A stretch of 7,602 nt of DNA from Eggerthellaceae bacterium UBA5906 (GTDB taxonomy: Bacteria; Actinomycetota; Coriobacteriia; Coriobacteriales; Eggerthellaceae), in NCBI GenBank assembly GCA_002431805.1, contig DJEE01000181.1:3212-10813 (forward strand), given 5' to 3'. Position numbers and translations under genes: made by a program. Of the stretch, positions 5,839 to 7,602 are shown piece after piece; position 1 is the stretch's first letter, and each line of letters starts with the position of its first letter. A model generated the notes under the pieces. The model was not told where the DNA came from, did no database searches, and was given only the letters and a program-made list of their open reading frames with translations.

Positions 5839-6633
5839 CTACTTCTCTAGCATGCCTAGCAGCGCGGCGATTTCACGCTGCACGGCGTGTTCGGTGTTCT
5901 GGCCGATAACCTTCGTGGCAATGTGCTTGATGGCCGAGCGCGCGTTGCCCATGGCCACGCTGGTGCCCACCATGCGCAGGATTTCGTAGTCGTTCATAGC
6001 GTCGCCAAACGCCATGGTCTCGTTGGGCTGCACGTTGTGCGCTTCCATGACTTGCCGAATGCCGGTTGCCTTGTTCACGCCGCGCTGCATGATGTCTATC
6101 CATTTGCGGCCCGACGGCGCGAACACGAAATCCTCGCCCAGCTCGCGCTCAAGGATGTATGCCATGTCCATGATGGCGTCGTCGCAATAGATGGACGCTT
6201 TCAGGATGCTGGTGTCGGGGTTGGGCAGTTCGTAGACGCGCAGCGGGTTGGGCAGGTTCTTGTCGAGCTCGCGTTCGAAACGCGCCTCGTCATCAAGCAG
6301 GTAGGAAATCTTGCGGTCGAACACCACCAGGTGCAGACTGTCGAACAGGTCCACCACGCGCTTTAGGCGTCGCAGCGCCGCGTGGCTGAACACTTCGCGG
6401 TCATACAGCTTCCCGGCAATAACCACCTGCGCGCCGTTGGAGGCCACGAAGTCCATGTCGTCCATAACCGGCGCGAACATGTCCTGCAGCGTGTCGAAAC
6501 GCCTGCCCGATGATGCCACGAAATGGATGCCCGCATCGTGCAGGCGGCGTACCAGGTCAAACGTTTCCGGGGGCACATTGCCTTCGCCGTCAAGCAGCGT
6601 GCCGTCCATGTCGCTTGCGATAAGCTTGATCAT
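5839..6633 (-). CDS. Cof-type HAD-IIB family hydrolase (sugar/nucleotide phosphatase-like)
   Basis: A 264-residue cytoplasmic phosphatase of the haloacid dehalogenase superfamily, at the usual length for the Cof/YidA type. All four catalytic motifs are present: DMDGTLLD with nucleophile D8 and acid/base D10; SSGR with S42; K188 in VNKATG; and GDAMNDYE with D211 and D215 for Mg2+. The conserved SNGA (65-68) follows motif II. The cap domain (about 80-185) sits between motifs II and III, the C2B arrangement of subclass IIB. These enzymes remove phosphate from small sugar phosphates, nucleotides or pyridoxal phosphate, and specificity cannot be predicted. The ATG at 6633 is preceded by AAAGGA 7 nt upstream and starts MIKLIASDMDGT, the normal family N-terminus. 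The frame is open to 6837, but that extension has no family resemblance. A strong terminator follows. Confidence 0.92.
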   Translation of the reverse strand: MIKLIASDMDGTLLDGEGNVPPETFDLVRRLHDAGIHFVASSGRRFDTLQDMFAPVMDDMDFVASNGAQVVIAGKLYDREVFSHAALRRLKRVVDLFDSLHLVVFDRKISYLLDDEARFERELDKNLPNPLRVYELPNPDTSILKASIYCDDAIMDMAYILERELGEDFVFAPSGRKWIDIMQRGVNKATGIRQVMEAHNVQPNETMAFGDAMNDYEILRMVGTSVAMGNARSAIKHIATKVIGQNTEHAVQREIAALLGMLEK

Positions 6634-6646: not shown

Positions 6647-6754
6647 CTCGGCGCCGTGTGCGCCGTGCGCCCTGACTGCGGTTGCGTGCCGAGGATGATG
6701 CCGACGCGCTTGCCATTTGGGCGTCTTTCGTTGGTTTCCTTTGACCTCGTGGCC

Positions 6755-6785
6755 ATTGTACGACCGGTGAAGCGCGTGTTGCCAA
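6755..6785 (-). promoter_or_regulatory. Candidate promoter of the HAD gene
   Basis: The minus strand has TTGGCA at 6785-6780 and TACAAT at 6760-6755, each 5 of 6 to consensus, but separated by 19 bp, 2 bp more than ideal. Transcription would start near 6748, giving a leader of about 115 nt. A short GC-rich hairpin (GGCGC/GCGCC, 6650-6664) lies just upstream of the ribosome binding site. Confidence 0.3.
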
Positions 6786-6883
6786 GTTGCAACGCGCCGC
6801 ATAAAACCTGCGCACGCCGCTTACCTGCCCCTAACAACGCCGATGCAAGAAGCTGACACGCCGTGCAAGTGCCGCGTTCGGCC

Positions 6884-7024
6884 CCAAAATGCGATACGTT
6901 TGGATTTTAATTGGCTTTAGCGATATAGCTACTTTTTGGCGCGTTTCTGATCTGGGCAAACGCGAGCGGTTTCTTCGCGCTACTGCGAAGGTGCGCATTA
7001 AAATCCAAACGTATCGCATTTTGG
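6884..7024. repeat. 141-bp foldback element: perfect 28-bp inverted repeat with internal hairpins
   Basis: Bases 6884-6911 and 6997-7024 are exact reverse complements over 28 bp. The outer ends are CCAAAATGCG / CGCATTTTGG and the inner ends are GGATTTTAAT / ATTAAAATCC. The 85-bp centre can itself fold into three hairpins: TAGC/GCTA (6918-6921, 6928-6931), CGCGTTT/AAACGCG (6940-6946, 6958-6964) and CTTCGC/GCGAAG (6973-6978, 6985-6990). The arms are much more AT-rich than their surroundings. The element lies in non-coding DNA between the MocR and HAD genes. It could be a MITE-like non-autonomous mobile element, a dispersed palindromic repeat, or a very strong bidirectional terminator. I see no clear target-site duplication and no transposase nearby. 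Confidence 0.85.
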
Positions 7025-7104: not shown

Positions 7105-7602
7105 CTACCTGCATTCGGGGAACACGTGCGCGAGGCGGCGGATGGTTTCGGGCACGCGGTCGGGCTCGATGCCGGCGTAGTTCACCACCAGCGGCACCTC
7201 GCCGTTTGAATATTGCTCGAAGCGCCGCGTGGTTCGGTTGCCGCGGTCGTTGGGCGCAAGTAGGTAGTCGCTGAACAGCGAAACGTTAAGCCCCAGCTCA
7301 GCGCCGCGCTCGCGCACTTGCTCGCCCGTAAGGGCTGTACGTACGTACAGCAAAAAGTGCGTGCCGGCGTTGCGCTCCTCAACGTGCGAGATGCCGGCCA
7401 GCGGCGAGCGCTCGATTTCGCGCAGCACGGCGGCGCGCTGGTGACGGTAGAAGTTGCGCGTGCGGTTGATATGGCGCTCGAAGTGCCCCTCATCGATAAA
7501 GCGCGCCAGCGCGTATTGCTCGAAGCTTGACACCGTGCACGAGTAGAAACTCATGGTGTCCACGTAGCGTGCCAGCAGCTTCGGCGGCAAAACCATGTAG
7601 CT
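7105..7602 (-). CDS. MocR-type (GntR/aminotransferase) regulator, C-terminal part
   Basis: The frame enters from the right edge of the window and ends in TAG at 7107-7105, leaving 165 residues. They match the C-terminal part of the fold-type I aminotransferase-like domain of MocR/PdxR regulators. The visible start SYMVLPPKLL corresponds to the RxGYxVLPPxLL segment just after the PLP lysine. TVSSFEQYALARFIDEGHFERHINRTRNFYRHQR is split in family style (xFIxxGHxERHIRRMRxxY). The region from GISHVEERNAGTHFLLYV to NYAGI is the small C-terminal subdomain. The N-terminal GntR winged helix and the PLP lysine would lie outside the window. Such proteins use PLP as an effector and often control B6 or amine metabolism genes; the target here is unknown. 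An aminotransferase without a DNA-binding domain cannot be excluded. The foldback element begins 81 bp downstream of the stop. Confidence 0.85.
   Translation of the reverse strand, partial: SYMVLPPKLLARYVDTMSFYSCTVSSFEQYALARFIDEGHFERHINRTRNFYRHQRAAVLREIERSPLAGISHVEERNAGTHFLLYVRTALTGEQVRERGAELGLNVSLFSDYLLAPNDRGNRTTRRFEQYSNGEVPLVVNYAGIEPDRVPETIRRLAHVFPECR

Follow-up and report, generated by a model that had tools for sequence, protein, structure and literature searches.

The question raised by this locus is what a long and perfect inverted repeat represents in the non-coding DNA of a bacterial genome. The window, by which we mean the whole stretch of 7,602 nucleotides that was analysed (contig DJEE01000181.1 of Eggerthellaceae bacterium UBA5906, G000:C50:3212-10813 in our labelling), comes from a genome, G000, of 2.36 Mb in 182 contigs that is 84% complete. 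Two arms of 28 nt each, at 6884-6911 and 6997-7024, are 100% complementary across a spacer of 85 nt. The first-pass annotation had judged this match to be far beyond chance, and folding bears this out: the minimum free energy (MFE) of the 141-nt element is -67.7 kcal/mol on the plus strand (z -9.0) and -62.6 kcal/mol on the minus strand (z -10.5), and 0 of 200 shuffles equalled either value. This strong fold is due to the arms. The head of three small hairpins that had also been described is drawn in the MFE structure of the window copy, but the spacer taken alone folds no better than shuffled sequence (z -1.54 and -0.21), and the mean over 28 copies is likewise at the shuffle level (z -0.32 and -0.22). 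The arms are indeed AT-rich (9 of 28 positions are G or C, by direct reading), and no target-site duplication (TSD) is present at the window copy. As argued below, we tentatively favour, with a confidence just short of even, the following reading: the inverted repeat marks one copy of a dispersed element, family A, for whose copying or movement in trans a predicted Vsr/EDxHD-like nuclease is probably responsible.

The dispersal itself is plainly seen. A 19-base arm core gives 28 forward and 29 reverse matches in G000, with none for the reversed control. Pairing of the arms and a de novo search for repeats were carried out on 64 stretches (770,658 bases, one third of G000) that include all contigs with an arm match. 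There the arms form 29 pairs, one of which spans Ns, with no single arms left over, so that the suspected dispersed repeat is present in 29 copies at unrelated loci. The 28 intact copies measure 125-127 bp from core to core. A typical copy reads AAAA-N2-CGATACGTTTGGATTTTAAT, followed by an 87-bp body and then the inverse, with arms of 26 bp; the outermost CC/GG pair of the window copy falls outside this consensus. Within the body, AGTAG and CTACT boxes follow the arms at a distance of about 13 bp, and the centre is CGTTTTCCCAGGTCA. Between copies the arms are 92% identical and the other columns of the body 33%, which shows that length, arms and motifs are kept while the remainder drifts. Two family A copies in contig C22 enclose one gene, which presumably encodes an amidohydrolase.

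The two arms of a copy agree with each other also at positions where copies vary. Changes on both sides were recorded at 14 of the 26 pairs along the arms, amounting to 83 cells compared with 26.7 in shuffles, and 0 of 500 shuffles reached as high a value, with the proviso that kinship among the copies can inflate this test. It used 27 of the 37 extracted copies, leaving out 7 whose length differed and 3 that belong to family F (see below); extraction had skipped 2 further copies because of Ns or a contig end. When the partner arm is slid out of register, pairing drops from 93.0% to at most 44.6%. The type of arm does not track the similarity of the body (16 copies, p 0.40), a test that says little because the bodies are near saturation. 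Perfect arms had been taken to imply either recent arrival or active maintenance. They do not show recent arrival, because the arms still match although divergence between the bodies is close to saturation; active maintenance fits better.

One explanation for maintained arms would be a transcription terminator or a structured RNA, since a transcript of either strand would form a long perfect stem. The data speak strongly against this, and we regard it as highly improbable. Rfam contains no match for the element, folding of the body is not in excess and no clear covariation is found in it. The arm cells that depart from Watson-Crick pairing show no clear wobble bias (19 of 68 are G-U). Arms matched by identity without a clear excess of G-U favour the recognition of double-stranded DNA over that of a hairpin RNA, and the arms seem to be kept by DNA identity and not by RNA pairing. 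Finally, a simple picker of open reading frames places family A copies between tandem, divergent and convergent genes, contrary to the suggestion of a bidirectional terminator. With the same picker an open frame enters or crosses the copy in 16 of 29 cases, and these frames are taken as spurious. The orientation of the centre relative to neighbouring genes is mixed. This, together with an asymmetric centre between matched inverted arms, might recall an inverton, a DNA switch inverted by a recombinase acting through the arms. Such a switch would explain neither the dispersal to unrelated loci nor a burst of copies in genome G125 described below, and we give it very little credence.

Family A is not alone. 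The de novo scan for inverted repeats in G000 recovered two further families, D (6 copies) and E (2 copies), that have the 87-bp frame and the centre of A with other arms; contig C75 carries one D and one E copy side by side. The core motif CGTTTYCCCAGGTCACAG is common to A, D, E and copies from nine related genomes that have other arms. Away from this motif the core has diverged to about 43% identity. In these nine genomes the arms are lineage-specific, and the centre is common to most, with G009 and others departing from it. When 138 genomes of the taxonomic family were searched with a covariance model that pairs the arms, 41 had matches at an E-value of 0.001; those scoring about 30-40 bits could be inverted repeats that arose by chance. 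The best E-values were below 1e-9 in G000, G001, G002, G125, G136, G147 and G153. Copy counts per genome from this model are lower bounds (no more than 23 candidates were scored in each) and range from 2-3 matches in the congener G001 to more than 20 in G002 (also a congener), G125 and G000. An earlier impression that the family was confined to one species came from a search of 60 relatives with an arm pattern and was wrong, and the one match of that search in G001 is a real copy.

Two genomes rich in copies deserve attention. G002 has 25 forward and 26 reverse arms, 43 of the 51 being exact over 19 bases. Copies of a second arm family of this genome, AAACTCGCTCGARTTTGGGACTTAA, at the places listed in Table 1 each have a copy of the first within about 500 bp. 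G125 has 37 and 35 arms, and an identity of 0.87 among the bodies of 11 copies points to a recent burst. Extra single arms lie in tandem at G125 L308:1380-1530, outside an element, and likewise at C12:53129 and C21:146.

These features raise the possibility of classical miniature inverted-repeat transposable elements (MITEs), mobilised by at least one DDE transposase whose gene the assembly lacks. Such elements are expected to be small, non-coding and dispersed and to end in inverted repeats, as is the case here, and the burst in G125 also fits. Inverted ends of about 26 bp are also a property of Correia-type elements. However, no TSD signal was found in 26 copies of G000 (lengths of 2-10 bp) or in 11 copies of G125 and 22 of G002 (2-11 bp), no length exceeding permuted pairs, and the absence of an obvious duplication at the window copy thus holds for the family. 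For the arm patterns searched in G000 and in G002, which is 99% complete, no autonomous relative with the same ends was found, nor any arms at a distance that would make them the ends of an intact insertion sequence (IS). The G002 arms form 25 pairs that are all 111-113 bp apart, with one extra arm lacking a listed partner, and the length of the core is fixed despite near-saturated divergence. Correia elements and other bacterial MITEs, as parts of PMC10969869 describe them, are likewise short, non-coding, dispersed and bounded by inverted ends; the present elements differ in that neither a TSD signal nor a related IS was found, and in their near-saturated bodies of fixed length and lineage-specific arms. 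An origin as classical MITEs is in our judgement quite unlikely.

What might then spread the elements? A clue comes from genes for a predicted Vsr/EDxHD-like nuclease, which in three genomes have an element on either side: in G000, where the elements belong to a further family, B, in G002 and in G125. Because related elements flank such genes on both sides in three genomes, spread in trans by the nuclease is likely. The same nuclease family occurs beside one element in two further genomes. Family B (16 pairings at 14 places in G000) differs from A in layout. It measures 161-182 bp, the arms around CTGCCAAAATTTGCGG are similar but imperfectly complementary, and a GGTTTT-like string lies outside some copies. 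The rear half of the protein is better conserved and appears Vsr-like, with the predicted fold and the conserved acidic and histidine residues of Vsr/EDxHD enzymes, and the less conserved front half appears AbiEi-like. AbiEi binds inverted repeats. One protein, from G091, scores 28.5 bits against PF04480 (cut-off 20.6); the other three proteins and a frame in G002 fall below the cut-off, and PADLOC and NCBIfam give sub-threshold matches only. CCWGG, the Dcm/Vsr site, is at the centre in 49 of 81 copies; the test used was strict and counts too few of the copies that are out of register, and the finding is suggestive only.

Based on these considerations, the favoured reading can be set out as follows. 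The AbiEi-like front half would bind the lineage-specific arms, and the Vsr-like rear half would nick or cut in or near the shared core. With two conserved parts in the element and a two-part protein, this is the simplest pairing. Repair or replication may then install a copy of the element at another site. The whole would resemble a population of REPINs, which are doublets of repetitive extragenic palindromic (REP) sequences, with the nuclease in place of the REP-associated tyrosine transposase (RAYT). The link between nuclease and elements is one of genomic association only, and the third of G000 examined yielded no nuclease gene cognate to family A. A bolder form of the idea, possible although doubtful, is that we are dealing with an undescribed class of mobile miniature element, in which one protein of two parts reads both arms and core: its AbiEi-like domain would determine the lineage-specific recognition of the arms and its Vsr-like nuclease would cut the shared core, so that a nuclease of the homing or mismatch-repair type drives the spread with no transposase. 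Concerted change of both arms between species would then be the footprint of changing protein specificity.

The predicted fold and the acidic and histidine residues of the rear half appear to be those of Vsr and of EDxHD homing endonucleases such as I-Bth0305I, which according to part of PMC3943268 has long DNA targets. Here the gene is free-standing between repeats, has an AbiEi-like front half and is accompanied by no intron that we could see. A search with the protein alone led to Collinsella aerofaciens (NZ_OY725717.1), where an inverted repeat with 42-nt arms directly follows a distant relative of the nuclease (L410:20994-21242). This lends weak support to the link, given that 3 of 12 other gaps tested in this record also contain an inverted repeat and that the element is not repeated within the record. 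Partial genes for Vsr-like nucleases with no inverted-repeat element nearby occur at L131:3031-3681 (G001) and L198:4862-5524 (C15 of G000). The nuclease search returned 0 phages and 0 confirmed viral contigs. Among the matches listed from the open-licence literature there was no description of this system of element and nuclease, and no open-licence paper was found that combines DUF559, transposition and inverted repeat, or very short patch repair, Eggerthella and repetitive.

It was of interest to ask whether the elements are simply REPINs moved by RAYTs. REPINs are likewise multi-copy and lineage-specific, with a doublet of conserved inverted ends around a body that varies in sequence but not in length (described in part of PMC3116915), and among the genomes tested PF01797, the RAYT family, is present in 10 of 16 element-positive genomes compared with 6 of 20 element-negative ones. 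It is absent, however, from the other six element-positive genomes (G002, G125, G009, G065, G139 and G147), two of which are among the richest in elements. The only RAYT detected in G000 is flanked by repeats of another family, R, and by no arms of families A-F, and three other RAYTs, in G001 and G136, have no listed arm type nearby. The locus in question (L360, C36:5507-5839 and flanks) has the REP-like family R, CGTGAACRSGGGGACGGAG, on both sides of the gene, a typical REPtron, and family R recurs in many of the G000 contigs read. The resemblance to REPINs and REPtrons extends to the cognate gene flanked by repeats (PMC3116915 and PMC3733652, in part). The differences are the lack of a RAYT in G002 and G125, arms of 26 bp that are not self-palindromic, a common central motif and a flanked gene that is a predicted Vsr-like nuclease. 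As for the GTAG-type tag that REP palindromes have at their foot, an AGTAG is conserved here, although inside the body. The TIRtron/TIRYT families, as presented in part of PMC3733652, similarly place a gene between long inverted repeats that are also found elsewhere in the genome; that gene is a tyrosine transposase and the present one a predicted Vsr/EDxHD-like nuclease. We therefore consider movement by RAYTs very unlikely.

Comparison of loci shed some light on turnover. Neither congener has such an element at the window locus, although the gene pair is kept in both. In G000 478 bp separate the matched stretches and in G001 about 203 bp; in G002 the corresponding interval is about 498 bp long and different in sequence. 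The spacer of G001 is too diverged for a joint to be placed. The copy at C58:4354 of G000 has a counterpart in G001 that adjoins the same sequence downstream and in which the two arms have undergone matching changes (the junction was compared by eye); orthology is likely but not certain because the left-hand flanks differ. Judging from flanking genes, G125 and G136 have one element locus in common, and at G125 L306 about 1 kb, not one element, distinguishes the locus from the empty site of G136. The copies at C82:25955 and C154:16553 have a neighbour gene in common with copies from G002 and G001, which lie on its other side. Genes beside two G001 copies presumably encode a serine acetyltransferase, a polyphosphate kinase, a cold-shock protein and a transporter.

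The locus shared by G125 and G136, the concerted change of both arms in the likely orthologous pair and the retention of length, arms and motifs would also be expected of immobile or slowly turning-over binding sites with a host role in regulation or chromosome organisation, whose copies are kept by selection and which coevolve with a DNA-binding protein, perhaps of the same nuclease family. Set against this are the swing in copy number between G001 and the rich genomes, the burst in G125, the absence of the window copy from the same locus in the congeners and the lack of any common theme seen among flanking genes, and we find such a role unlikely.

Carriage by phages or plasmids was also considered and rejected. 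A scan with an 18-mer of the arm found single matches at 18 loci, 16 of them in unrelated genomes and the other 2 in viral contigs, and at 3 of these loci a further stretch resembling the arm, with 5 mismatches, was present. Element queries gave a 27-nt match at most in phages and plasmids. The centre motif occurs in 16 viral stretches, about the number estimated for chance, with inverted repeats around it of no more than 10 bases.

Two more families were encountered in G000. Family C differs from A in layout and holds a CCCAGGTCA-like motif; each element has three copies of the arm CCGTGCACGGTTTTGCA, among them a direct one at about +52 and an inverted one at about +134 to +146, with a CCAGGT-type centre. 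Family F has inverted arms, CGCGAAGTGCGTAGGTT, and occurs in several lengths, one of them in common with A, with a body identity to A of only 0.31. In the window itself, blocks CCATTGTACG and AAACCTGCGCA at about 6750-6830, upstream of the HAD hydrolase gene, are conserved in G001 and G002, and the rest of that spacer is not.

Table 1. Features of the window copy and its surroundings, with examples of the related families.
Feature	Position	Strand	Remarks
Family A element, family frame	6886..7022	- (centre motif reads on -)	AAAATGCG...CGCATTTT; 137 bp, most copies 139 bp
Left 26-bp arm	6886..6911	+	AAAATGCGATACGTTTGGATTTTAAT
Right 26-bp arm	6997..7022	-	Inverse of left arm
Centre motif	6946..6962	-	CGTTTGCCCAGATCAGA (family version CGTTTTCCCAGGTCA); coordinates by reading the sequence
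AGTAG box	6980..6984	-	CTACT on + strand; coordinates by reading the sequence
Degenerate partner of AGTAG box	6925..6929	-	GCTAT on -; coordinates by reading the sequence
Flanking gene, HAD hydrolase (PF08282)	5839..6633	-	Context only
Flanking open frame	7105..7596	-	No Pfam match; beside the hydrolase gene also in G001 and G002; context only
Family B examples	L085:9129, L088:9352, L091:5701, L095:18218, L252:7044 and others		
Family C examples	L085:10528, L095:10439, L095:3139, L098:6246		
Family F examples	L086:12133, L093:16719, L093:18768, L192:15504		
G002 second-family neighbourhoods	L290:1820 and 2089; L291:1405 and 1681; L292:1574 and 1999		

Whatever the mechanism, many of the long inverted repeats between genes are now accounted for in the part of G000 that was read. 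If spread by the nuclease is correct, it would provide a function for a family of Vsr/DUF559-like nucleases that, in the sources searched, has no functional name beyond its domain labels, and REPIN-like populations would be possible without a RAYT. The arms of the repeats and the specificity of the protein would then co-vary between species, making this a system that could be tested pair by pair.
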